Source of the DNA: Hexactinellida sp. DTS-2022
Taxonomy: Eukaryota; Porifera; Hexactinellida
Reading direction: 5' to 3'
DNA: 64,000 nt
Assembly: GCA_028753945.1 (NCBI GenBank)
Contig: JAPNXP010000002.1
Location: 8,928,001 to 8,992,000 of the forward strand
Made by a program: the position numbers and the translations under genes. Below are positions 21,346 through 59,900 of the stretch, piece by piece (position 1 is the stretch's first letter; each line of letters begins with the position of its first letter). The notes beneath the pieces were generated by a model. That model was not told the origin of the DNA and did no database searches. It saw nothing but the letters and a program-made list of their open reading frames with translations.

Positions 21346-21929
21346 CTATATTCAAATAATGTTAATAAAGTTATATAACCTGACAACTAATAAGAAGTTT
21401 ATTATAATATAACATATGATCACTAATTGTTTCCGTACACATTCCGGTGCAATGTAATGTAACTAAGTTGTAGAATTAGGTTCAGCTTCTTCAAAACATT
21501 CATACAAAAACTAAAAAGTTTAAAATTATTACAATAAAAGTTGAGACTATGTAGTTTAAATTGTATAACAAATAATAACTATTAAACATAAAAATTAAAA
21601 CCTTTAGTGACTAACAACAATCACATTGGGGGCATATCCACAAATCATCTTCTCCGACACAAACAGTTAAAACATTCAGATTTCTCAAACATTGATTATG
21701 ATGCTAGCCATCACATATATCACAACATAACCAGGCCACTCTTACAATAATTGTTTACCAATACTACTACCCGCCTTGTTTAATATCCCATTGTCTTCGC
21801 TCCCTCCACATATTTTAAATGTTAAGTCCATATCCCGTGGCACACTTGTTATTTGGGAATAGGCCCCGCTCTTATAAGTAGCTCCACGTTTCCGGGAGCG
21901 GGTTAATGGTTTAATGACCATCTAAGCTT
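21346..21929. other. Unassigned; likely 3' flank of the Mutator-like element
   Basis: No recognisable domain. The transposase frames fade out near 21930. Confidence 0.4.
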
Positions 21930-22106
21930 TGTATTAACACTATCTCTTACATTATTTACAAATCTTTCATTATCAAATTCTTTACTAATCCATCTATTGA
22001 AATATAGCCGTTCAATCCTAAACTATCAATTATATTTTGAACACCAGCCACGCCTAAGTTGAAACGAATGATACCTAAACTACAACCTAATTTCATCAAA
22101 CTCAAT

Positions 22107-22242
22107 CAGTGGCTACGCTAGCCAGCCGCCACTGGTGGGGCACAAATACGTCACAGGTGGGACACTTACATTAATGAGGTGGGCACACTTAAATTCAGGT
22201 GGGGCACAGGCCCCACCTGGCCCCACCCTCGCGAAGCCTCTG
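22107..22242. mobile_element. hAT MITE, 136 bp, in the transposase pseudogene
   Basis: Ends CAGTGGCTACGC and GCGAAGCCTCTG are flanked by the 8-bp duplication AACTCAAT (22099-22106 and 22243-22250). Removing it joins the transposase reading through the TKPIE.. and ..LGCSLG segments. GTGGGGCAC words repeat inside. Confidence 0.9.
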
Positions 22243-23188
22243 AACTCAATTCTATTGGCTTGGTTTTGCTCATACAACTCCAAATCATCCCATGAAGGTT
22301 CTCATTTAGATTAGAGGTGTTACCTCCTGAAACCTTTTCCAATAATGACACTGCAAAGTTAGGTGCTAAAATCACTAAAACACGATCCCTACCTGCTAAA
22401 CTAATGCACATGGGATGTCATGGAATTGTATCTCCTGCAACTACCGCTTTCTGATACATGCAAATTGAATCAGCACCCTTCTCACAATATTTATGCATTT
22501 CATGACAATTATCATCATTAGCAGCTAAATGATAAACAATACCCAACAATGCTTCACTTAATTTAAAGATCACCATCATTCTACTTTTTACAACAAAGCC
22601 ATATTGAGATGTTATTTTATCAATTAGACTATCATGTAAATATTTATTTGATTAGTTTTATCTACTAATTCTTCACTATCATCCCAATTATCTCTTCCTT
22701 TTTTCAAATTCCTAAGCGTAGATGGCCGATATAGATCACTAACAGTTTTTTTCTGCGCTTCAGTTTATATTGTCCCAATTCGTGTTGCAATAATGTATTT
22801 GTGAAGCAATAAACTCTTTTTGTTTTAACTAAATATGTTCGTATGGGCTTCTGAACATGACTCAGACATTCCTCCCGCCTTATCGGTATATTAAATTCTC
22901 CATAAATATTATTTTCAGCAAATATTTTTAGACTTTTATCATCACCATCCGCAATCACAGTGGAGTAAATTAATTTCCGTTCAATAGACTTACGAAAAAT
23001 AACTCGGGCTAATTTTGATTCTAGCGCAACTGAATTATACATGCCATATTCTTTAGCCTGCAACTAGATTCATGCATTTCTTTCCATATCTTATATTCAG
23101 CTAAATCTAATCGTTTCTCCCTAAGAGCTTGATGCTTCTAAATACACATTTTGCAACTATTACGTGCAATTTCATAATTTAATACTTT

Positions 23189-25882
23189 ATTCTGGTCGTT
23201 GAAATCCCAAAAAGGGTCAATCCTAGAAAAAATTCATACAAAGAGTATTTTAGTTTCACTAGAAGCGGAATTTTTCGTAGAATAACATATCCAAAATCCG
23301 CTAAAATCCGTTTAGGGAAAATATTTTACACGGGTGGCAGTGTCGGCCATTTCATAGTAAATCGCCGACATTTTCGTAGCTAACTTTCTCAAATCAAATC
23401 TAATCAACTTATAATCACCATATTTGTACTCAACGTAAAATTTCCAACAATTTGATATATCACATTACAACATTTGGAGGATCTTTTCCATAGCAACGCT
23501 CGAATGTGCCAAAAATATGTCAGGAATGTGTGAACATTTCATTCTCAAATTGTGGGCCTATCCAATCAAGTGACCCCTCGTTCAACTCCAATAGTATAAT
23601 TAAGCACATATCGACACTTTAAAATGGGATTTGAAGAGATTTATCTGAAAATCTTCAATTTTAGGTTTATCTCGAATAATCTCGTCAAATCCCATTTTAG
23701 AGGGTCGATATGTGCTTAACGCTAGTGCACTCGATTTTGATGGAAAGCGTGTATTATAGAGCCAAGATTAAAAACGCAATTAAGCTGTAATTCCCTAAAT
23801 AATTCTGAGTGTACATGTCGAGCATATTAGCAATTTCAAATTTCCTCCAACGATACTTCTATGAATTTTTTTTTTGAAAATCTAAAATTATCCTATAATC
23901 CAATCTTTTATACGAAAACAATTTTTCTAGGTGTCATAACGATTTTGGATTATACCGAATTGCACCTTAAAACAACCTAAATGATCTCCTTGAGAAACGG
24001 AGTGTTCATTTTGAGCTCTTACATTTTGAAAAATAGTTTTATGGCAATATAATCAGAAAACGACGAGAATTCAGTGGTTTTTTGATTTATTAGGTGACAA
24101 AAGCGTCCCAAATTTGTCAAAAAACAGTCAATCAAAAATCAAAACTACATAAAGTTCCTTTTACTTGTTCTCAACACTCTATTAAATTTTTTAACAAATT
24201 AATTAGCTAGTTTTTGAATGAAAATTTTTATCCCTGAGCCACTTTTCACATTCTCCTGTTTTTTTTTGTGTCGAAGTGGCTGAGTCCAGAATGTGAAAGT
24301 AAGACTTATAGGAGTTCCAAAGCTGCATAAAATAGATAATGTCATTTGAAATGGAATTAGATCATTTTTAATAATTTAGAGCTAAGCTCTATCTCATTTG
24401 GTTCAGAAGTTGGATTTTTTGTCACATATTTGATATTGCCACTCTGCCACCACCATATATGGGCATTTAAAATCAAAATACATCATTCGAATCAACATAT
24501 ATTCCCAAAAGGTTATCCAATGAGTAAGAATTTGTATAATGATGTGATTAGAATTTTAGAGCTAGTGTCTGCTGTCTACAGATCAAGAGTTAGAAAATTT
24601 GCTTCGTCATCAAAATTGGTCACATCAAATTACCATATATGGTCATGTGAAATTTTTTAGACACCTAGGGTCCCAAAATGTATTATAAACGTATATAAAG
24701 TCAGGTATTTACAGTATTTTCTGATGGCTATAATCATTTTATCTCAAAGGGTTTCTGAAATATCAACAGGTGTGAAATGTGAGATTTTTTGCCCCCTTCT
24801 GATGTTCAAAAGTCTATAACCTAACGAATATTAATTGGATCGGGCCATAAAACGTCTCATTTTGTGCGAAAATGCTATTTCCATCTTTGTATCAACAAAT
24901 CTGAACTTATATAATACACTATTGTATATTTGAGGGCCTTGAGGTGTGAAAATATGACAAAAACGACAAAACCATAGTCATAAATTGGTCATAACTCATG
25001 ATATATTAGTGGAAAAGTGTTGAAACCAAATGATACATATAGATAAGAAGCTTACACATTAATATAAAGAATAACAGAATTATTCTGTAGTCCAATATCC
25101 CACAGTAATATATGATCACCAGGTACTGCCATAGCCTTCATCTACTTTTATGCCCCTAATTTCCTAATCTTTGACATATTCCTAAATTTTTTGACGTAAA
25201 CCTAAATATTTTGACCTGTAGAGTCCGAATTTCTCGATTTTGGGACTCAATATATGACAGTGAAGAATTTTATCGCCACATTTAATTCTGAAATCCGGGG
25301 AAATTCGTAGGCCGCTGCCTTAGAATGCTTATAACACAAAGAATAAGTATCAGAAAGTGACAAATATTTCTCAGGGGGTTACATATGATCCATCCTCAGT
25401 CCTTAGATTATGATTTGAAAAAATTCGATACAAAATTTATATTCCGACACCAAAAAAAAAAAATCGAGTGCACTAGCGTTAATTATACTAGTGGAGTTGA
25501 ACGAGGGGTCACAAGATTGGATAGGCCCACAATTTGAGAATGAAATGTTCGCACATTCCTGACATATTTTTGATACATTCCAGCGTTGCTATGGAAAAAT
25601 CCTCCAAATGTTGTCATGTGATATATCAAATTGCTGGAAATTTTACGCTGAGTACAAATATGGTGATTATAAGTTGATTAGATTTGATTTGAGAAAGTTA
25701 GCTACGAAAATGTCGGCGATTTACTATGAAATGGCCGACACTGCCACCCGCGTAAAATATTTTCCCCTAAACGGATTTTAGCGGATTTTGGATATGTTAT
25801 TCTACGAAAAATCCCGCTTTTAGTGAAACTAAAATACCCTTTGTATGAATTTTTTCTAGGTTCAACCTTCCAACGACCAGAC
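23189..25882. mobile_element. 2.7-kb foldback transposon inserted in the transposase
   Basis: Long inverted repeats of roughly 560 bp (23215-23780 against 25455-25870) end in TCTGGTCGTTG. The flanking coding DNA carries a direct duplication of TACTTT (plus strand; 23183-23188 and 25883-25888). Deleting the insert and one duplicate rejoins SVETGKV with LNYEIARNSC, the expected transposase sequence, so the boundaries are well supported. The middle (23800-25440) has no recognised coding sequence. It contains AGAGCTAAGCTCT and two CCATATATGG words and an internal ~120-bp hairpin at 23600-23722. Confidence 0.88.
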
Positions 25883-27055
25883 TACTTTCCCAGTTTCCAC
25901 GGATATAGCACAAGCAACGCAGTATCTAGAAAATCCACCCACCGATTTGCCCCCCCTTTTTGATATGCGCCGTCATATGAAACTGTAACCCCTAAAATTC
26001 TTAATCGTCCGTGTTGTGTATTTTTCTCAGCTCTAAGGCTGCCCGCATACAGCTTGCTTGTGCTACATCTTGGAAACCTTAGATAAATAATCCTGAGCTT
26101 TGTAATGCCCTATTAGATAACGTTGATGGTAAACCAATGAAAGTATTTATGTAATCTAGTCCTTATTTACCAATGCCAACTAATCTACCACCTAATATTT
26201 GTATAATGTTATGGCCAAACTTTATTGTATTATCTGTGTCGGAATGGGCACTATTCTGAGAGAGAGTATAGAAAGGGACAGCTGTAAAACATTGATCACA
26301 TACAATATAATATTGCAAGGCCAGTCCATGATTATACGACGTTCGATAGAAAGATAGCCGACCTCTACCACAAAACATATAAACAGAAATATCCACTAAA
26401 GCACTCTCTAAGATTCCTACATCCATAATTCCATTGCCAACGAACTTACATAAATTTTGATTTTCACCCCTAGATTTATCAACCATAAATTTCCATTTCT
26501 TCAAAAGGAAGGTCATCAACAATGCCCCGGGAGATCTTTCTTTGGGCAGTTGTAAGCTTAGGCTGATCTTTCTGTGACGGAGTTTGTTGATGTTCTTGGC
26601 TATCCAAAAATGGTATAATCTCGTTTCGGGTCTCCTCAGAAACTCTGGGGACCCTAGCGGATAGCTCAATAACATCAAGTGACTCCGTTACACTTGTTTG
26701 GCTGCTAGCCGTAGGAACGGGAGAGTACTCAGGAGCTAAGGCCACCTTTTCGCGCTTTATGCGTCCACCGAATTTATTTGGACGCTTTTTAGAGCTAACA
26801 AGAACTCTACGTTTTTCCTTTTTTAGTGTGGGAATTATAGGAGCTACAAAAACATATTTACCTTCGATTGTTTCTCCAAAATCAAAGCCTTTCGGCACTA
26901 CAATATCCTCATCAGAACTTGAACTAAGATCCTTTCGAGGAGGTCCTGGGTTACTTCTACACCACCAACAATCAATAACATTTTAATAACAGCTGCAACT
27001 AGAAGTGTGGATATGCCCCACAAATATCCAATGTCTGCCCGAGCGAAATATCCAT

Positions 27056-27661
27056 CTTCAGGGCAATAATCTTGGAAGACAGCCTCACTCTTCCTCCTAG
27101 CTACCAATTCTGCCTCTCCAGGCTTCTAGAGAAATCATCGAAAATTTGTTTTGAATTTTTACAATTCAGAGAAAAAATGAAAAAAAGAAAAAAGATCAAG
27201 CATTAGGAACTATGAAGTTTTGAATAACAATTTGAGTTTAGTGAAAGTAAAATATATTAAAGATACACAGTAGTGCTATAATGTCATAACGGAAATGCGG
27301 GTGGTCTTATTCGTTACAAATATAGATCCACTTATTTGTCTGAGTAATAAGAATGGAATCATTATGACATAATGAATTCTGAGGATGCGCAGATTTCAAA
27401 ATAATATACAGTGCATCAAAGTTGCTAAACAGTATGAAAGGAACCAATATTATTGTAGGTAATTCACATCTAAAATTAGTTATTGAAGGGGAGAATTTAC
27501 CAGATGAAGGAACATCCACTAAGTTATTCTTTTATATGCATAAAATTTAGTTTACTCGTTGGGTGATTACGCATAAATAGATTCATTTATTGAATAACAG
27601 TAGTATATTAGAATATTTTATGTTTAAAATGACAAATTCAATCAGATTTGACATCTGCTGG
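27056..27661. promoter_or_regulatory. Intergenic region between divergent transposon genes, copy 1
   Basis: This ~600-bp region separates the transposase start (minus) from the small basic ORF (plus). Positions 27300-27600 are conserved, inverted, at 45785-46135 in the second copy, and a probable splice acceptor (TTTCTCTAG, minus strand) lies near 27127. Conservation and divergent geometry suggest a bidirectional promoter; no TATA box was confidently placed. Confidence 0.5.
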
Positions 27662-27886
27662 ATGAGAAGCATCCTGCGATAAGCTCCTTCGGCAAGGAAA
27701 AATATTGATAGGCTGGTAAAGGATAAGCACAGGAGCATTGTGAGCATCCGCGCGGCACACAAGGTGGCAAGGAGGGCTTTGAGAGTAATTAGGCGCAAGG
27801 TTCTTGGACTAAAGAGAGTGACTCTTGATGGCCTCAGGATTGAACAGGCCTATAAGATGTGGGGTGGTAGCAGGGCCGGTCCTTGA
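27662..27886 (+). pseudogene. Small basic protein of the Mutator-like transposon, copy 1
   Basis: The frame reads MRSILR, then TAA at 27680-27682, then an open run APSARKNIDRLVKDKHRS..YKMWGG. It is very basic and helical (RAAHKVARRALRVIRRK). It aligns with the product at 45438-45695 in the second copy (shared LR-APS, RAA.K.AR, DLR/GLR and MW.G). Both lie divergently upstream of the transposase, which argues for a genuine transposon gene. The frame runs into CAGGGCCGG at 27871, the start motif of a hAT element, which truncates the C terminus; I found no matching right hAT end. Function unknown; a DNA- or RNA-binding role would be a guess from charge alone. Confidence 0.6.
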
Positions 27887-43274: not shown

Positions 43275-43496
43275 TCAAACGTATCTAGGTCTCGCCATTA
43301 AGCAGTCAACTTTTTTAAAGAGCGATTCGATCTTCCTTTCTATTCGTTCCATTCTTTGAGGAAATTCATCCACTTTTTGTGTTAGGATGTCTAATTTATT
43401 TTCTAGATGTTGAATTGAAGTTGTTTCGTTCAGCATTAACATATTCAGAGAATCCAGGTGGTATCTAATTTGTTGTTCTTTGTCGTTCTTTGCCAT
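43275..43496 (-). CDS. Small coiled-coil protein (73 aa), probable transposon accessory gene
   Basis: Starts at a real ATG (MAKNDKEQQ) and stops at 43275-43277. Hydrophobic residues follow a heptad pattern across LNMLMLNETTSIQHLENKLD and LTQKVDEFPQRMERIERK, giving a likely continuous coiled coil of about 50 residues with a basic C terminus (LMARPRY). No known family recognised. It lies on the same strand as two other small genes (44429-44915 and 45438-45695) that sit behind the Mutator-like transposase copy, so it is plausibly part of that transposon. It could also be the last exon of a longer gene. Confidence 0.5.
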   Translation of the reverse strand: MAKNDKEQQIRYHLDSLNMLMLNETTSIQHLENKLDILTQKVDEFPQRMERIERKIESLFKKVDCLMARPRYV

Positions 43497-43689
43497 TTTA
43501 GATAGAAGTTAATTAGTGCTATATAGTCCAGATTAGAAATTAACGATTATTCAGCTATTTATAGTTCAACTAGATAGTGACACATTTTAAGTATTCCGTG
43601 TTAAATTGATACAATAAACTTAGCATACTTATTCAACAATGATGATAAATAAAACACATTTGTGAATCCATAAAGTTAAGGTTGCAGAA

Positions 43690-44380
43690 TACCATCGAAT
43701 TTCCGAAAAAATCGATAAAATATCAATCCTAATCAATTTTGATTTTAATTCATTTTCGCCCTCTATGGTTACTTCTAATCACTCTCACGAATTTTCTAGG
43801 TAAAATACAAATTTTCTTTCAAGTTATAGACTATTATGTCACCGTCCCCTGAAGTTGAAGTACACGATCGAACACTAAAATTCGAGAAAATATCAACTCT
43901 AATCAATTTTGATTTTATTGCATTTCCGACATCTATGGTTACTTTTGATCACTCACACGAAATTTCTAGGTGAAATACAAATTAAATTTCAAGTTATGGA
44001 CTCTTATGTGACCATCACTTTATGTTACAGTACACGATTGAACACTGAAAAAACTCGAAAATATCAACCCTAATCAATGTTGCTTATATTGCATTTTCCG
44101 ATTCTATGTTTACCTTTGTGCACTCTAACGAAATTGCAAGGAAAATACAAATTATATTCCATAATACAGACACTTTTGTCACAACTCTTCACGTTGCAGT
44201 GTACGATCGATCACTAGAATTCGATATAATATGAACCCTAATGAATTTGATAATATTGCATTTTTGGCTTCAATAATAACCTCTGAGCCTCTCTTGTAAT
44301 TACTAGGAAAAATCAAGTTATATTTCAAGTTATATACACTTGTCAAACCCGCTTCAGAACTAAATCCTTTTGGTCTAAAG
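43690..44380 (+). repeat. Tandem array of ~4 diverged units of ~175 bp
   Basis: Each unit carries AT.AACCCTAATCAATTTTGAT, TTGCATTTTC, TCTATGGTTAC, CTAGG.AAAATACAAAT and a TACACGATCGAACACT-type end. The first unit begins near TTAAGGTTGCAGAATACC (43678), which resembles a TTAA-c terminus. Confidence 0.8.
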
Positions 44381-44428
44381 ATAATATGCATATTACAACT
44401 GGTCAATTATGAGGTATGTCATATTATT

Positions 44429-44915
44429 TCACTCACATATTTTGTGTCTCCCCCTTCTTATTGCCTCCTCCTCCATTATTTTCCTCCAACCTCCACAACA
44501 ATGACCCTCCTCAGCGTGTGAGGAGAACGTTAGAATGGGGAGGGCTATGGCCCCTAGGAACTTCAAATAGTCCATACATCTTTCTAGGGCCATAGCCCTC
44601 TCCTTTGTCTTTGCCAGGTCCTTGTTGAGGACCTGGGCCGCCTGGCGGAGTGCTTCCTCCCGATTCTCGGAGGCCAAGGCTCGTGCCTCCATTTTCTGTG
44701 ACATGTCCCACCAGTACAATGTTCTTCCTAATTTATATGTACAATTGTAAGATTTCAGTAAAGTAATTATAATGTGTGAACTTACTCTTGGATGTCGTCA
44801 ATGAATTGTGGAGCCGAGTCATTGACCGGCTCCAACTTATGCCGTCAAATTCCGAAGGCGGCGGAAGCGGAGGAAGTGTCAGGCCATCATAGGCCGGAGG
44901 CGCAGGACGTGTCAT
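44429..44915 (-). CDS. Two-exon gene, Pro-rich then charged helical protein (142 aa)
   Basis: Exon 1 (44786-44915) starts MTRPAPPAYDG and is Pro-rich (LPPLPPPSEFDG). It ends at a donor GTAAGT after one base of a codon. Exon 2 (44429-44727) follows an AAATTAG acceptor and restores the frame as Arg. The joined frame of 142 codons has no stop. After the junction come LYWWDMSQKME, an Ala/Glu/Arg/Leu helix (ASENREEALRQAAQVLNKD), a short hydrophobic LGAIALPILTF, and a basic tail (IRRGRHKICE). No family recognised. Matching splice phases and biased composition argue that it is genuine. Position and strand suggest a cargo or accessory gene of the adjacent Mutator-like transposon. Confidence 0.6.
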
Positions 44916-45437
44916 GTCTAATTTTGAAAACAGTATACAAACAATATGGTTCCACTAACCTATAGATAATTTTTAAAAATATCATTTATCAACAACTTAT
45001 GTTTTATTGCATTTTTGAATAGGTTTTCCTTTTGTGAGCACTCATAGTAGAAATTGAAACTAAGTTGACAATTTGGTAAAATTCATTGGAGCATTCAAAT
45101 CACGCGAATAATGTTTCTGAGACCAATAAAGGAATTACAACTTATCCTTCATTGGGTCAAACAGAGCTATCGAAATTGAAAAGCTACAACACATAAGTAA
45201 TCAATTACAATCCTTCTCGACAATTTCTTTTCAAATTGGAAACTCAGAAACTTGTGACAATAAAAATATAATCGATTTTCCCTCAATTGGATAACTCCCT
45301 TTTTGTGACTATTCGTATAAATCATATAATTGTTCTAATTATTCAATTGCCAACTATACTATAGTATAGTGGTCTATTATTTACCACATACATTACTAAT
45401 ACTATTATTACTACAAATCTAACTATTATTATTATTA

Positions 45438-45695
45438 TTATTGTTTACACATCTGGTAGAACTCTAGGGCCTCATCTTGCGGAAGTTGGTAATTACCTTC
45501 CCACATAGCATGTGCGTGTCCTCTGCGGAGGTCATTGATATAAAATCTAGGGAGACGCTGACAACTTCTCGCATTTATCCTCGCAATCTTCCGTGCCGCG
45601 CGGAGAGCTAGTTGAATCCTCTGCTTTTCCCTTTGCAGAGACAATATGTTATTTTGTAACATATTGCGTGTTTTTGTTGAAGGCGCCCTCCTCAA
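45438..45695 (-). CDS. Small basic protein of the Mutator-like transposon, copy 2
   Basis: The open run is preceded by TGA; the first in-frame ATG is at 45662 (MLQNNILS), so either translation starts there or an upstream exon is missing. The sequence is strongly basic and helical (LALRAARKIARINARS), ends YQMCKQ and contains HAMWEGNY. It aligns to the ORF at 27662-27886 in the other transposon copy, and in both cases the gene points away from the transposase. Its GC content is higher than its surroundings. Function unknown. Confidence 0.62.
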   Translation of the reverse strand: MRRAPSTKTRNMLQNNILSLQREKQRIQLALRAARKIARINARSCQRLPRFYINDLRRGHAHAMWEGNYQLPQDEALEFYQMCKQ

Positions 45696-45699
45696 TCAG

Positions 45700-46321
45700 C
45701 CATTCATATACAATATGTCGCCACGTATTGCGGATGTCATAATACAAACAATTATTTATTATAATATAATATTCCAAAAAACTACTGATATTCAATAATT
45801 GAATCTATTTATACGTAATAACCCAACGAGTAAACTAAATTTTATGCATATAAAAGAATAACTTCGTCGGTATTCCTTCATCTGGTAAATTTACCCCTTC
45901 AATAACTAATTTTAGATGTGAATTACCTACAATAATAATGGTTCCTTTCATACAGTTTGTTTGTCACCTTTGATGCACTGTTTATTATTTTGAAATCTGC
46001 GCATGCGCAGATTTCATTATGCCATAATGATTCTATTCTTATCACTCAGACGCAATTAGTGCATCTATATTTGTAACGAATAAGACCACCCGCATTGCCA
46101 TTATGACATTATAGCACTACTGTGTATATAAATAATACTTTCACTAAACTCAATTGTTATTCAAAACTTCTTACTTCTTATTGCTTGATATTTATTTATT
46201 TGTTTTTCAATTTATTTTCTATTCAAACGAATTTGGAGATGATTCCCCTAGATACCTGAGAGGCTGTATTGGTGTGTGGGCAGGAAGAGTGAGGCTGTCT
46301 TCCAAGACTAGTGCCCCGAAA
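45700..46321. promoter_or_regulatory. Conserved region between divergent genes, copy 2
   Basis: Positions 45785-46135 match 27300-27600 (inverted), including CCAACGAGTAAACTAAATTT and a TGCGCATGCGCA palindrome at 46001-46012. A likely splice acceptor (TTCCCCTAG) lies near 46249 just before the conserved transposase leader. Probably a bidirectional promoter with a 5' untranslated exon. Confidence 0.5.
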
Positions 46322-46650
46322 ATAGATATTTCACTCGGGCAGACATTAGATATTTTGTGGGGCATATCCACACTTCTGGTGCTCGCTGTTATTCTAATTT
46401 TATTGATTGTTGGTGGTGTGGAGGAACACCCGGGACTTCCTCGAAAGGATCTAAGTTCGAGTTCTGAGGAAGAGATTGATGTACCGAAAGATTTTGATTT
46501 GGAGGAACTTCGGACGGTAAATTTGTGTTTTCAGCTCCTATAACTCCCATACTAAAAATGCAAAAACGTAGAGTTGTTGCTGGCTCTAAAAAGCGTCCTA
46601 GTAAATTCCGTGGACACATAAAGCGCGAAAAGGTGGCCTTAGCTCCTGAG

Positions 46651-47350
46651 CAGGGCCGGATTAACCCATGGGCAACCGGGGCAACTGCCCCGGGACCTCC
46701 ACCACCAAAGTTGTACTTCATTTTTCACTGGACAATTGTAGTGGAAGGCAGAGTGGTTCATGGGTCAACATTGGTGACCCATGAGGCCATGACCCATCTG
46801 ACCCATCGGATTTGTGACCCATAACCCATTGAGTGACCCATTGACCCAACGTGTTATCCATTGACCTTTTTAAATATCTATTTTTAATATCCAAACATTA
46901 TGTAACACAATATATATGTATAATGTATGATGCTTGTCAATCAATTAATTTTGGTAGATTTCTAATACCAAAGAAATACCATATAATGTTTCTGGGTAAA
47001 TTTGATTCATACTATAACTGGAATTCCAAATGGATCATGGGTCATGGGTCACAGAGCCGTGACCCATGACCCATCTGACCCATGACCCATGACCAGGGCC
47101 GGCGGAAGCTCGTGAGAGGTGGGGCGGCCTTGTATTATGATGATAATTGTGAGGATTGCAGAGTCAAAAAACACTCCCGCGAAATTTCAGAGTACCAAAA
47201 AAATCACGGAAAAAGTGGGGCGGCCCAGCCGCCCCAACCCCCCCTTCCGCCGTCCCTGCCCATGACCCATGGTCCACTCTGGTGGAAGGAGTTAGGGGCC
47301 TCCACAACACTGGTTGCCCCAGGGCCTCCACCTCTGTTAATCAGGCCCTG
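46651..47350. mobile_element. hAT element, 700 bp, in the transposase copy
   Basis: Ends CAGGGCCGGATTAA and TTAATCAGGCCCTG with 8-bp duplication CTCCTGAG (46643-46650 and 47351-47358). It contains many GACCCAT sub-repeats (46780-46865 and 47035-47095) and a nested hAT element. Confidence 0.93.
47094..47258. mobile_element. hAT MITE, 165 bp, nested inside the hAT element
   Basis: Ends CAGGGCCGGCGGAAG and CTTCCGCCGTCCCTG, 8-bp duplication CCCATGAC (47086-47093 and 47259-47266). GGGGCGGCC words lie near both ends. Confidence 0.9.
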
Positions 47351-47570
47351 CTCCTGAGTATGCTCCCGTTCCAACAAATAGCAGCCAAGCAAGTGTAACG
47401 GAGTCTCTTGATGTTCTTGAGCTATCCGCTAAGGTCCCCAAAATTTCTGTGGAGACCCAAAACGAGACCATACCATTTTTGGATAGCCAAGAACATCAAG
47501 AAACTCCGTTATCTGAAAGTCAGCCTAAGCTTACAACTGCCCAATCAAAAATCTCCCCAATCATTTCCCA

Positions 47571-47994
47571 AAGGGGGAGGTGGCGGTGGCGGTGGCGTTG
47601 CCGGTGGATGACCTCTGTGCATTTTCAGGTTAGAAATATTTATGCATACAATGTATGTTGCATTCTATATTATAATAAACTTCTTATTAGTTGTGAGGTT
47701 ATAATTATTTATGGACACAATGTATTTTGTTCCTGGAAAGTACACTGCAGTGTTGTAGGCAGGCTAGGAAAATTTGATTTTTTGGGAAATTATATTCATT
47801 GATATGAATGAACATAACTCAAATTATATAATAGGTATTCAATTGAGAATTTCGCAGTAAGTATACTTTGTAATATTACGTTGAAATAACTACGATTGAA
47901 ATAGGTTTCACCATTTTCAAATAGTAAATCAACTTTAAATCAATTGATTTTAATTTTGATTTTATTTAAAAAATAAAAATATTTACCATTACTG
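47571..47994. other. Unassigned stretch
   Basis: A (GGTGGC)n tract at 47577-47607, then AT-rich sequence with no recognised feature. Confidence 0.4.
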
Positions 47995-48385
47995 GCAGTA
48001 AGTAGGGGTATACCACAAAAATTTCCACTTTCGGGTACTTAGCCACATATCGGTTTTATGTTATTTTTGGATAGAACAGACTATGCCGCATATCAAATCC
48101 AAATTTCATCGAAAATATTGAAAACTTTCATTGATACCGACTTTTTAGTGTCACCTGAGCCACTTCCTTGGGGGGGTCATTCTTTCAAACGCCGCTACCT
48201 CGGAACAGACTTTTGTCGTTAAGCAAGACATATTATATCTCATATACCACCTAGAAAGAAAATCTCAACGGTTTTGGACAGATCTCAATTAGTTTTAACA
48301 AATGAGTGCAGCGATTTCATTTGTGACCTAAATTTTTATTTAACCCATGCATTTAACTTAGTTACCATTTATCTAATATGGAATT
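47995..48385 (+). repeat. TTAA-c related fragment
   Basis: Matches 1560-1900 (CCACATATCGGTTTTAT, GACTATGCCGCAT, AATCTCAACGGTTTTGGACAG) but lacks the terminal repeats. Confidence 0.65.
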
Positions 48386-48473: not shown

Positions 48474-51400
48474 ATGGCAGAATACACGCGTGGTAAAATA
48501 TTTCATCCTGTGTTCGGTTACCCTGGACCTATACCAGAAAATCAACTCCCAACAAAACTAGACCTGTATAATCATTACAGAATGCTTAGAAATGAAAATT
48601 CGAAATTCACTAGAGACGATATTGCGAAAGAACTTACACAAATAATAGTGCGCATCTATGAAAAGTCTTCTATACCAACAATATCTGAGATAAAAATAAA
48701 ACAATACATCAATTCTGGTATTATTGAGAGAGCTAAATACCACGGAAAAAGTATCCAAAACAAGCAACAACCTGACCGTGTCCAACCTATAATTTCCGAA
48801 TTCAATGTTCTGTTCGACGTCTCGAGTTGTAAATGCCCGAGTGAAGAAGGCAAATGTTTTTGCTCTTTCGATAAAAAGATACCAAGCCGCGAGTGGCCAT
48901 TTCTCCTTGATCAGCGAAACGCTAGAAAATTATTTTTATCCAGCTTGGATCGCTCGACCACCTCCAAAAATATTGCTGCTCAAAAGAGAAAAGAGGCACA
49001 ATATGAAAGAGAAGAAAGCGAACTGAAGAGACAACAACCTGATCAACCTTCGCAGGAATTTTTAGAATGTGACCTTGAAGAGTTTGAATCTTACGACCCA
49101 AATACATCGAATAATCACAAGCATACACGTAATCATAATCAATTGCGAAATTTAGCCATAATGTGTGATAGATATCAGATAAGCGATCGCGCAGGCGCAG
49201 CTATAGCCAACGCAGTACTCCAGGATTACGGTATTATCACACCAGATGAAAATAGTCTAATTATTGATAGAAACAAACTACGTAGATCGAGATTTTCAGT
49301 GAGAAGGGTTCTAGCTAACGAAGCTCACGAGAATATCACGGATATCACTGCGATTTATTTTGATGGCCGTAAAGATCAAACTCGAGTGATGGTAGAGAGA
49401 GGATGGAAATCTGCACCAGGATACTGTGAATGAAGAACATTACACCGTCTTATCTGAACCAGGAAATCAGTATATTGCCCATGTAAGGCCAAACTATACT
49501 CAAGAATGATATTGAGATTATGATCTTTTTGGATAGTACCCTATAAAATAAAGCAGCATTTAAAATTTCAGCTGTTTCTGACACATACTTTCGAAGTTGC
49601 GACCTTTTTAGAGCTTAGGTTATGTATGCATCATCATCAAAAGCTCAGTTTTCAAATGTACGATCATAACTTTTGGTCTAGATTTCACAGATTTGGTTCA
49701 ATATGCTTGAAACCAAGTTTAAATGAATGAATACATATGTTCCTTTATAGAAATACGTTTTTTAACACTTCCGAAAAAAACTTTCAGAGTTACAGCACTT
49801 TGAAGTCAGATTTCTACCGCCAACCTATAACATTTCGATGTTTGGCAGTCAAAGACTGACTTCAATGGGCTGTTACTCTGAAAGTTTTTGTCGGAAGTGT
49901 TAAAAAACGTATTTCTATAATGGAACATATGTATTCATTCATTCAAACTTGGTTTCGAACATATTGAACCAAATTTGTGGAATCTAGACCAAAAGTTATA
50001 ATGGTAGGTTTTTACATACACCACTATTTTGACTCAAATCAAGTGAATTTATATGTTTATAACTATTTTGCAAATGCTTTCATCCGTTTTTCATATGAGT
50101 TGGTAATAGTACTTAGATGTGAATACAAAGTTAGTGCTAAGCTCTAGAGTTTATAGTTTTCGAGAAAAATATTTGAAAATCATCAAAAATGGGCACACTT
50201 TATGCCCATATATGGTCATTTGGAAAAATTGTGCGAGTTAGGGTCTCAAAATGTATTACTGAGGGATAGTAAACCGGGTATTGGGATCATTTTGCACTCA
50301 AAATTTTATTTATTGGTCTACGGGTTACTGAGATTCAAAATAGAAAAGTGAAAGGACCACCCAATGAGTTGAAAGGTCAGAAAGTTTTAATTGCTTGAGC
50401 GTTCACAGTTTTTATCCTAATTGTTTGAAACCAAGTGTAAACTAATGAATATATATTCAATTTGGGAATGACCCTTGATCTAAACTCTACAATGCGAACT
50501 TTCAGAGTTCCAGCCCTTTGAAGTCTGACTTGGCACATTGACAATCCAAATCTGAATTTAAATGACCATAAATCAGAATTTTTCGATTAGAATGTTGAAA
50601 ATTTTGGTTTAGATCCTAAGTATATATGCAAAGATACTATTGGATGAATAACAACGAAATTGATAGTAAATTATGGCAGTGCGAGCCTACAAACTTTTTA
50701 ACCCATTTGAAAAAGTCACCCTCCATGATGTCCATCACATTCCAGGATCTTATAAAGGTCGCTACAGCAAAACTATGGGTCAGATTCACCTGAAATTTGA
50801 AATGTAGGTATACTTTACAGGGTACTATCCAAAAACAATCGAATCTCAATTTATCTGACGAGCATTGTGGGGCCGTAATTTAAATTTTCGTCCGAAATTG
50901 GCTATGTAACAGGGAATTCCTGGGTCACAGAGCCCTACTGACTTCAAATCTACTCAGAATTCAAAAAAAATTTGCCAGATTATTTACCAGTGTGAAACAA
51001 TCAGGAAAACGAATTAAACTCATTTTCCCATTTGCAGTATAGTTTGGCCGTAACACCTAGTTCTGGTAAATCAAAAGATATAGCAAGGGAATTGGTTGAT
51101 CTTTGCAGGGAGCGGAATTCAGATTTAAAGGCTGTTGGAGCTGATGGAGCTCGAGTTAACACTGGAATCCATAATGGATGTATTAGACTCCTTGAACTAG
51201 AGTTCTCAAAACCACTCCACTGGTTTATTTGCCAATTACACAGTAATGAACTTCCATTGAGGCATCTCTTTGAGAGAATAGATGGGAAAACCAGTGGACC
51301 CAATAGTTTTAAAGGAGTAATTGGAAAAGAACTTAATTCTGATTTTGCTAGCAAGCCAATCGCGGTTTATAATCCTATATGCGGTAAAAGTCAGTACATC

Positions 51401-52213
51401 AATTGCGAGATTCTCAACAATTTAAGTACAGATCAGAAATATCTATATAATATATGTCATGCAGTTCAGTCTGGTAACTGCTCATCTGAACTTGCATCGA
51501 TGCAACCTGGCCCTATACATCATGCTAGATGGACAACTTTAGCCAATAGGTTACTTCGATCTTACATTTCAACGATCCATCCTACACCTGAATTATCCCG
51601 AATTGTCTATTTTATCGTCAATTACTATGCACCAGTTTGGTTTAGAATTTAGAGTAATTCTATATGCACAGATGGACCTAGAAACCTATTCTATGCAATA
51701 TCTTTACTGCGAGAGTTACCGGACTACGATCAAGAAGTAGTTTGTGATGTGCTACAGAGAAATGCATATTTTTGTCATCCAGAAAACCTTCTGTTATCGA
51801 TGCTTGCAGACAATGATGTGCAAATTAGACAAAAGGCAGTGAACACTATTTTAGATATCCGCACCAACAATTCATCATTTGGACAGAATGAAATTCGCCC
51901 ATTTAAGCTTCCTTCAATAAGGTTCACTGCTGAAACATACGTGGATATGATTGATTGGGAAACATCTCTTATCACAGAACCGCCTTTGACAAAACACCTC
52001 TCAAAAGAAGTACTACTTAATAGTGTGTATACTCCTATAGAAATACCAGGATATCCATGCCATACACAAGCTGTTGAAAGAACTATTCAACTGGTTACAA
52101 AAGCTTCATCATCAGTAACAGGGGAAGAGGCGAGACATGGATTAATTCTTACAACACTAACCTCGAGAGAACAAATGCCTGCTTTTGAGTCAAAAAAAGA
52201 TTATACATGTTAA
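48474..52213 (+). pseudogene. Two-exon transposase-like repeat protein (RNase H-like pattern), inactivated
   Basis: The family is abundant and uncharacterised in invertebrates. Exon 1 48474-49482 (MAEYTRGKIFHP), intron 49483-51037, exon 2 51038-52213; about 728 codons. Candidate catalytic or structural motifs are IYFDGRKD, GADGARVNTG (first and second Asp), a hAT-like WFICQLHSNEL, LSTDQKYLY, ARWTTLANRLLRSY and HTQAVERTIQLVTKAS (candidate Glu). I infer an RNase H-fold DDE enzyme, not proven. Lesions: a frameshift in the GAGAGAGG run near 49395-49402, after which NEEHYTVLSEPGNQYIAH is read in the shifted frame, and TAG at 51650-51652 after VWFRI, where the same frame continues on the far side. 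The alternative start upstream of ATG 48474 is not needed. No terminal repeats were found. Confidence 0.8.
49483..51037 (+). other. Intron made largely of a TTAA-f repeat
   Basis: Donor GTAAGG and acceptor CATTTGCAG give a correct codon junction (QYIAH then YSLAVTPSSG). The repeat body 49487-50874 is homologous to 1-650 and 4580-5960. The first intron bases GTAAGGCC occupy the position of TTAAGGCC in other family members. GTAA also follows the repeat at 50875-50878. The last ~150 bp are a further repeat shared with 6165-6290. Confidence 0.75.
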
Positions 52214-56981: not shown

Positions 56982-59900
56982 TCAGCATTGATACAACAGG
57001 TTCATAATGTAGGACGAAATTTTTGATGTAAAGATTGACAGTTGGGCTGTTAGTAGATCTGAGCAAGCTCCACGCACATGACGAATTACAGACTCTGGCA
57101 TTCTATAATCGTTGTTAGCAACGTAGATATCGGCATTCAGAATAGCAGAAGCAGCCATAATTTCAACATCACTTCCCCAAATGGATTCACGATAGATAGC
57201 GTTTTCGTGTGTGAGGTAATGACACGGTGTTGTTTGCTTTGATTTAAAATACCATCCAAGTTTTGTTGTCCCTTCACTGGCTATAAATCGGCATATAATG
57301 GAACGAAGCTGTAGGTGGCTGTTTTCACTCCCAGTAATTATTTTGGAGAGACATCTGAAGAGACAATTACCATCTCCTTTGATTTTCTCTGTCAGCTCTG
57401 GTTCGTATTTGCTTAGTGGCTGTCCAACGAGATCCGATGGTTGCTTGCTAACTGAATCAAATCTTATCCCCAAGAGAACACATTTACTACGCTGCCAATT
57501 CTCATCTATAACAATAATTTTTGGGTCATCCGGATAGGCATCTGTAATAACGGTTTGATCTTTTTCGTCGAACGTGTCCCATAGCATCGTATTGAGATAC
57601 TCCATCGCCTAATAAAGGTATATAGGAATCATTAAGTATAATAAAATTACACAATTAATTAGAGCATCCATATAAGGTATCTCAATAATATTGTGTAGAA
57701 TTCTTACCACGAAATACAGTATTTTGTGTGTATGTCTAGCACGCTCATTATCTGTAAAACTAGGATAAATATCTGTTGTCCATTCCATTACAGTCTCAAT
57801 TATGTCTCTCTTCTACAGATATATAAATACAATGGATATAAGTTGTGTTTTAATAATCTAAAATTTTCTAATTTATACTCGGTTAGACTTACAATTTTAT
57901 CTTCTTTGTCACCATTCAAAAACTGAAATAAATAGGTGTTGGGAGTATAGATGTGTTGTTTGTTTAAGCTTCTGTACAATTTCTCATGTAAAGGAGTCGC
58001 GAAGGTTCCTTGGAGAATATTCTGTTTTAGAATTTCCTAGAAATTCAAAAAAATGATGAAGTAATCATTATTGCCTGAAGTTTATGAGATAACTGAAATT
58101 GACTCAATTGGAGAAGTAAATTGATAAAATAACAATCACTTCTCAACAATAATTCAGGAATGTAAAGAGAATGGAATCCTTACTTTGAAAGTAGTTAGAT
58201 GTGTAAATATAGATACTGCTGTAAATCCATAGAGATTCAGGCAAGTCTAAAATTGAATGTTTTCAATGAAATTGACACTAATTTATATTTATGTATGATT
58301 TGATCAATAGTACCTGTGATGTGTCGACACCTATGCTCGAATCGAGGTTTACTTTCTTCTTAGTGTTTCTTACAAAATAAGGACGTGTGATATGGATTGG
58401 AATTTTCTTGTCCTTTTTGGCTCCTAATTCTGTCTGAGAAATAGTAACATGACTATCTGTTACTTTAGACACCGTGTAAGGCCCAATATATTTTGATTGC
58501 TTCTTCGTTTTGGGTAAGTGTTTTATCTTTGGCATGTTAGTGTATATGATCTTATCATCCATCTTCAGAGAGGCACTACAGATGTCATAATGATAATAAA
58601 ATGTGATTAAGAAAACATTGTTGAATTTATAAAGCTCAACTAACCGTCCTTCGTTGACCTTCTTATCATACTGCATCTTCTGTTTTATTTGCTCAAAGTT
58701 GATACTATCCATTGCTGATTGCTGTGTAGAAGTACGAGATTCATCAATACTAGTAACTTCTTCTTGGGGAATGTCAAGTGGTGGAGAAAAGATGTCTGAT
58801 ATTTCTTCAATATCATCGAGTGGAAGAATGAATTCGCTCATAATAGCATCATCTATTGCAAAATCTTCTTCAGTGTTGCACTGCAGGTTGTTAATGGTCG
58901 ATAGAAGATCTTGATGCCTGGACTCTCTTCCCCACATAACCTTGAATGGAGTTTGTCCATGGGACCTTTTAAAGGTAGAATTCATTGTTATTGCAGCAGC
59001 TTTTAGAAGATTTGTCCAATGATCCCCAGTCTGGATCTCCATTTTGTTCAGTTTACTAAAAAAGTACTTTCATAGTTGGTATATTATCCTAATCATGCAT
59101 TCGAAATGTTGTTATCATTTACTAGTTAACTAATAACACTACCTTTTGAGAATCTTATTGTGTGCTTCGACTAAACCGTTAGCCATCGGGTGGTATGCAC
59201 GAGTGCTACGATTTTCAACTCCTAATTTCCGGTGAAATTCCTGAAATATCTATGAATAATACAAGCAAAATTACTATCGAATACGTACTAATATTATAAA
59301 AAATACATATTTAGCAATATGTCACTGATAATATTTGATTAGAATGTAGAAAAATTATTATGCAACTCACATTACTTGTAAACTCCCTTCCTTGGTCGTG
59401 CTGAATATTATCTGGTAATCCCATATCGAGGTAGATATCCTTAAGATTCTGGATTACTTCTTCTGATGTCTTCGACTTGAGAGCGCGCACTGCAACGTAT
59501 TTGCTCAGATAACAAACAGTGACTAAGATGTGTTTATATCCATCTTTGCTCTCAGAGAAATCACATATAAGGTCCATCCCTATATGTTTCCACGTTTTAG
59601 ATGGAGGTGGGATTGGTTGGAGCTTCTTTTGCGGTTGTGGTGGCAAGGCCGCTGTCATCTGACATGTATGGCAAGTCCTTACCTATTGTATACAAGAAAG
59701 TAATTATAATATGGCATTTTTTAATAATTTTGTATTAGTTGCAGCATCGATATCTAATTACACCATTATATAAAATTCGTAAATGGTTGATTAAAGTTAA
59801 CTGAACATTATAAAAATAAATATAAAAACAATTTGGGATCTTGCGAAATAATTTTAGTTGCTATTAGTCGTCAAAATAAAATGCTTTACTAATTAGACAA

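Follow-up and report, generated by a model that had tools for sequence, protein, structure and literature searches.

A decayed Mutator-like transposon of a hexactinellid sponge with optional, divergently oriented small genes and a 2A-type leader apparently common to several transposon superfamilies

The segment at ~43674-48327 of the 64,000-nucleotide stretch analysed here (the window, C11:8928001-8992000) is what remains of a large Mutator-like (PF20700) transposon, in a copy that is dead and truncated. With moderate confidence we read it as the decayed form of a multi-gene, divergent, Rehavkus-like element, in which a transposase with a 2A-type leader points rightwards and small genes point leftwards. 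The two small genes, one encoding a basic protein and one with two exons, are optional modules of the element. The more surprising part adjoins the interval originally singled out (43275-46321): the leader is common to several transposon superfamilies.

A search of the genome (112 Mb, 18 contigs) with 43275-46321 as the query returned at least 68 matches, and the copies were fetched and compared. They are referred to as E01 (L009/L010), E02 (L011/L012), E03 (L013/L014), E04 (L015/L016), E05 (L017/L018), E06 (L019/L020), E07 (L021), E08 (L022), E09 (L023), E10 (L024), E11 (L025), E12 (L026), E13 (L027), E14 (L028), E15 (L029), E16 (L030) and E17 (L031), and the two copies in the window as WIN and WIN2. 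The similarity of WIN to the fetched copies extends from ~43674 to ~48327. The earlier note had recognized a Mutator-like transposon, and this is borne out by E03, where L013 contains the Mutator domain in two pieces scoring 66.5 and 33.5 bits against a Pfam cut-off of 26.5. The transposase that belongs to the small genes lies on the plus strand and starts at 46239. WIN retains only its N-terminal remnant (46439-47566), split by an insertion at 46651-47349 that is absent from other copies; ~4.6 kb are gone at 47566/47572 relative to E03, and what is left of the element's right side follows at 47572-48327. The part missing from WIN contains, in E03, the Mutator domain, a PHD-like end and then a minisatellite with a 30-bp unit (L013 8291-8851, 18.4 copies); a minisatellite with a 28-bp unit is present in L028 (3197-3346). 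The PHD match in L013 reaches 20.7 bits, under the Pfam cut-off of 24, and a cysteine/histidine pattern of the PHD kind is visible by eye in L013, L029 and L030. Between E15 and E16 the transposase dN/dS is 0.36 in the leader, 0.30 in the next part and 0.19 in the rest. Downstream of the transposase, L013 9122-9322 holds a plus-strand ORF with a hydrophobic stretch at its end, which has relatives, mostly partial, in several loci.

About four tandem 170-bp repeats (43674-44341) lie on the left of the element, towards its interior, and units of this kind occur at 27 places in 12 fetched copies. E03 is flanked by tandem units of ~116 bp, inverted between the two sides (13 matches on the left, with further units in L047, and 9 on the right), and among the other fetched loci this unit was found only in E01, E02 and E06. 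In two copies the 116-bp arrays contain a repeat of 728 bp, which has inverted ends and an apparent TTAA duplication (L014 4547-5274; E01 720-1447). The outer edges of the copies are occupied by other elements, so the comparison stops short of the true element ends and of the 8-11 bp target-site duplication characteristic of the Mutator-like superfamily. E02 and E03 form a duplicated chromosomal block in which the surroundings match too, and they are therefore counted as one event. An inverted duplication that includes the transposon and its surroundings links C11:5475000-5494999 with C11:9757000-9776999, 4.3 Mb apart, at 96-99.7% identity. The start of C11 (L038 1-300) contains, by eye, a tandem repeat of ~210 bp. 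In the second window copy, the leader and a broken transposase lie on the minus strand (21501-27138, with an insertion of ~2.7 kb inside), and a type-B basic gene with a stop lies divergently on the plus strand (27629-27883), i.e. the same geometry as in the first copy, as had been noted before. In the parts that were read, the distant Mutator elements L032 and L033 show neither a leader nor small genes of this kind, and scans of viral contigs with alignments of the transposase and the basic gene confirmed no relative.

The earlier note had assigned three minus-strand genes to the transposon. All three frames exist, but only two belong to the element. The 73-aa coiled-coil ORF (43275-43496, minus strand) lies outside it: no element copy matches the initial ~400 bases of the query, tblastn found the protein in no other fetched copy, and the one other match of the region (C11:7326947-7327222, 88%) stops at 43672, at the start of the element. 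The transposase pieces at 48474-52213 were considered as owner of the small genes and rejected, since they belong to a different element; their full-length matches elsewhere are 98-100% identical and coincide with no listed copy of the small genes, the window itself excepted. This transposase-like gene, with 727-aa frames in its copies and a break near 49401 in the window copy, matched no Pfam family above the 0.01 threshold. Farther along the window, an OTU-type cysteine protease (E 2.1e-9) lies beside frames that, by eye, we take to be integrase-like (56985-57608 and 58278-59682).

The first small gene encodes a basic protein of ~100 aa (type A in the window, 45438-45740, minus strand). As first seen it was a 74-aa frame at 45438-45662, described as ~75-85 aa long; the gene is real, with 18 matching loci genome-wide at identities down to 36%, but in its relatives the frame opens at the ATG corresponding to 45740 and spans 100 aa, and WIN has an in-frame TGA at codon 15. 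The matched stretch is free of stops at 13 of the 18 loci, some of them partial. Two types, A and B, can be distinguished, in addition to the diverged E13 and E11. For comparison with the leader we used 22 Mutator-type leaders (split matches merged), i.e. 19 with a downstream transposase match plus WIN, C11:6812799 and C1:11165976. Twelve of them have the basic gene divergently upstream, nine at a distance of 489-551 bp, in keeping with the divergence from the transposase reported earlier; the two small genes travel with the element in a fixed divergent arrangement. The remaining 10, some of which are fragments, have no basic gene within 3.5 kb; the two that were read, E15 and E16, possess the longest open transposase frames among the near relatives, and the ~3.9 kb upstream of each contain no basic gene. 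The small genes are thus optional modules, and the objection foreseen in the earlier note, that other copies of the transposase lack them, applies in part, the basic gene being absent at 10 of the 22 leaders. Six of the 18 basic-gene loci have no adjoining leader; four of these (L026, L031, L027 and L025) still carry element DNA, and two are not among the fetched loci. C11, which accounts for 15.6 of the 112 Mb, holds 16/22 Mutator-type leaders and 13/18 basic-gene loci.

The basic gene is under purifying selection between types A and B. In eight pairs (four A copies with E17 and with E10, the stop of the latter masked) dS is 1.89-2.42, dN 0.59-0.72 and dN/dS 0.24-0.37, while dS is saturated in the four A-versus-B pairs with E05. 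The ratio is 0.38 for E17 vs E05, 0.40 for E05 vs E10, 0.64 for E17 vs E10 and 0.42-0.71 for pairs with E13. Within type A (6 copies, 15 pairs) it is 0.45-1.07 in 13 pairs and 1.90 in one, the last pair having no synonymous change, and the gene evolves no faster than its surroundings. When E03 or E01 (type A) is compared with E08, E14, E17 or E10 (type B), the flanks are 86-90% identical and the basic gene 63-70%, compared with 87-97% within types; pairs that involve E04 or E12 have one flank or both disturbed, with lower values (0.68-0.90). Diverged types between such similar flanks make the basic gene look as if it had been swapped as a block between copies, the clearest case being E14, whose transposase DNA is 93-96% identical to that of E03, yet whose basic gene is of type B. 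The intergenic region (45741-46238), a candidate bidirectional promoter, diverges by 1-9% among A-type copies and, where it adjoins the basic gene, shares 86-89% identity with B-type copies. Co-variation of the basic-gene type with the 170-bp repeats was considered and rejected: the 27 units do not sort by type, and those of E05 (type B) group with units of A-carriers. The small proteins matched no known family in sequence searches of Pfam, NCBIfam and PDB. Structure prediction, which had been suggested for the small products, yielded a poor model of the basic protein (pLDDT 69.7, pTM 0.37) with three helices, for which Foldseek returned no match at this low confidence; the protein is probably helical.

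The second small gene (44429-44915, minus strand) has two exons (44786-44915 and 44429-44727) separated by a 58-nt intron (44728-44785) with a GTAAGT donor, a TTAG acceptor and matching phase, and reads 142 aa in the window. The splice sites and phase described before are confirmed, the sites being kept in 7/7 modelled copies, but the 142-aa reading overruns the usual end: WIN has lost one base near the end of a hydrophobic tail, while E01, E03 and E07 encode an uninterrupted protein that stops just after this tail. The gene is broken by a frameshift in exon 1 in E05 and by stops in E04 and E06. It has eight clear loci genome-wide and lies near 7/22 Mutator-type leaders. Its exons outpace the intron and flanks in 12/14 pairs (p<0.01, ratios 2.0-6.2), which share copies and are thus not independent; no different rate was found for E01-E07 (ratio 1.4, p 0.26) or the very close pair E03-E06 (p 0.25). 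For exon 2, dN/dS ranges from 0.33 to 1.12, with one pair undefined, which means that synonymous and non-synonymous change are both raised and that constraint is weak by this measure; of the two small genes, it is the basic gene (A vs B) for which the proposed dN/dS test across copies supports coding constraint. GC or CpG mutability was rejected as the cause of the fast exons, as AT columns diverge about like GC columns. A tenable, if tentative, explanation is recombination between diverged copies or relaxed constraint instead of selection for change, in line with the raised synonymous change (dS 0.115-0.326, one pair with none) and with the block replacement between similar flanks that the basic gene already shows. 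However, block exchange would hardly spare the short intron between the fast exons, which shows 0-3 differences in 53-56 bases, and the length changes of the exons mostly keep the frame, with the exceptions of E05 exon 1 and the end of the window copy.

The claim that the small genes are accessory genes or cargo of the transposon survives in part: two of them travel with the element, in an optional manner, and the coiled-coil ORF is excluded. They could be captured host fragments without a role for the transposon; Pack-MULE is the name for cargo of this style. The optional occurrence (the basic gene missing at 10/22 leaders, the two-exon gene at only eight clear loci) and the failure of the small proteins to match a known family would fit such an origin, which we nevertheless consider rather unlikely, because the basic gene is under purifying selection between types at a dS of about 2, keeps a constant place and direction relative to the leader and, among the fetched loci, was never recognized away from element sequence.

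The transposase starts with a hydrophobic leader of ~67 aa with a 2A/StopGo-type motif (GGVEENPGP) at its end. The leaders of L029 and L030 start with MIS[LI]EAWRGRIG, continue as a hydrophobic stretch and close with GGVEENPGP or GGVEVNPGP. In WIN the leader (46239-46438, plus strand) is frameshifted near its start and ends in GVEEHPGL (46415-46438). EHPG or a similar sequence replaces ENPG in E02, E03, E05, E06, E14 and WIN, and EHLG does so in E01. According to the parts of PMC12846837 available to us, the published 2A core is (D/G/C/N)(V/I)ExNPGP, G variants are functional, and alanine at that N of ENPG abolished skipping in F2A. The core fits L029, L030, L041, L042, L043 and L045, and does not fit L013, L017 and L028 (EHPGP), L044 (LNSGP) or WIN; given the F2A result, skipping is doubtful in the Mutator copies with EHPG-type motifs. 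The leader evolves faster than the next stretch in 6/11 pairs (p<0.05), all involving E04 or E05, and at no different rate in the other five.

The leader alone gave 105 genome matches, i.e. 100 loci after merging. A Mutator transposase lies within 12 kb downstream at 22 of them (19 elements once split matches are merged), a Helitron_like_N-type piece at 33 (27 at 2.0-3.3 kb, six farther), an L045-type piece at 22 and none of these at 23; C17:809280, which has both Helitron and L045 pieces, was assigned to the nearer. The Helitron and L045-type leaders are spread across many contigs, unlike the C11-heavy Mutator-type leaders. Five non-Mutator loci (L041-L045) were read: L042 holds PF14214 (E 6.5e-16), a Helitron match at 89% lies within L041, parts of L043 read as Helitron-like, no clear cargo is visible in L044, and the transposase-like protein of L045 has no Pfam match. 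Judging from these alignments, homologous leaders precede Mutator, Helitron and L045-type genes in the same genome. Convergence on a hydrophobic stretch plus a short motif could mimic descent, since hydrophobic segments are easy to align and the 2A core is short, and PMC4981915 regards it as likely that 2A arose many times. We regard convergence as quite improbable, as identity between the leaders is 38-49% all the way from the Met through NPGP (E-values down to 6e-13), the polar N-terminus MIS[IL]E..R..I is common across families, and the Helitron-like L043/L044 show short DNA similarity to the Mutator leaders. In the literature covered, from which subscription papers were mostly absent, we found no account of leader sharing across transposon superfamilies, and in its titles and abstracts we recognized no 2A leaders of Helitrons or DNA transposons.

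In the multi-gene, divergent element that we favour, the ~500-bp intergenic region would drive transcription both ways. The rightward gene would yield the transposase with its leader, Mutator domain and PHD-like C-terminus; ribosomes would skip at the leader end, so that the leader stays at the membrane and the transposase is freed for the nucleus, and failed skipping would retain part of it. The leftward genes would supply the basic ~100-aa protein, a putative accessory factor acting on DNA or chromatin, and, in one sub-lineage, also a ~100-aa protein whose hydrophobic tail suggests work at the membrane. A broader reading, speculative and as a whole not likely, is that the leader is one homologous module moved among unrelated superfamilies (Mutator/Rehavkus-like, Helitron and the L045-type transposase family), which would serve all of them as a device for counter-control or dual targeting, with the tailed protein, which changes fast, and the swapped basic gene as further parts of an arms race against host control. 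If a ribosome-skipping-type leader is indeed common to Helitrons and Mutator elements, unrelated transposons in one genome trade a control module.

The literature examined says little about accessory genes in animal-type Mutator elements, and a survey of 322 arthropod MULEs reports a single ORF, with two in six of the species (PMC13359780). By its described features the element resembles Rehavkus, a Mutator-like family of arthropods and annelids with a PHD finger, a minisatellite, a 9-bp duplication and one ORF (PMC6446971, consulted in part): it has a Mutator-type transposase, a PHD-like C-terminus (below the Pfam cut-off) and a minisatellite after the transposase, as expected before the 3' inverted repeat (L013, 30-bp unit; L028, 28-bp unit). 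In contrast to that single ORF, it has small genes on its leftward side (two at most), a leader of the 2A type and long 116-bp arrays in inverted orientation; with the basic gene at 12/22 leaders and the two-exon gene at 7/22, we call it Rehavkus-like and do not file it as Rehavkus. MuDR, Mutyl and VANDAL have additional ORFs (mudrB, mutB, vanB/vanC; same source and extent) and are likewise Mutator elements with accessory proteins, the likeness drawn here being one of gene content. In VANDAL the accessory protein VANC and its tandem-repeat targets diverge together, whereas here there is no co-variation with the 170-bp repeats. A Mutator transposase between inverted tandem-repeat arrays is also found in the Tm1 Mutator/Foldback element of root-knot nematodes, which, in the portion of PMC3169594 available, has repeats of ~14 bp, a length of 2.6 kb and one protein, compared with 116-bp units and several genes here. 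The leader itself recalls the N-terminal 2A signal sequences of sea-urchin NLR genes, with a hydrophobic N-terminal sequence and the 2A motif at its end, 2A being known from non-LTR retrotransposons as well (PMC4981915, in the sections available); it differs from these in being longer (~67 aa), in having G first in the core and in belonging to DNA transposons of several superfamilies.
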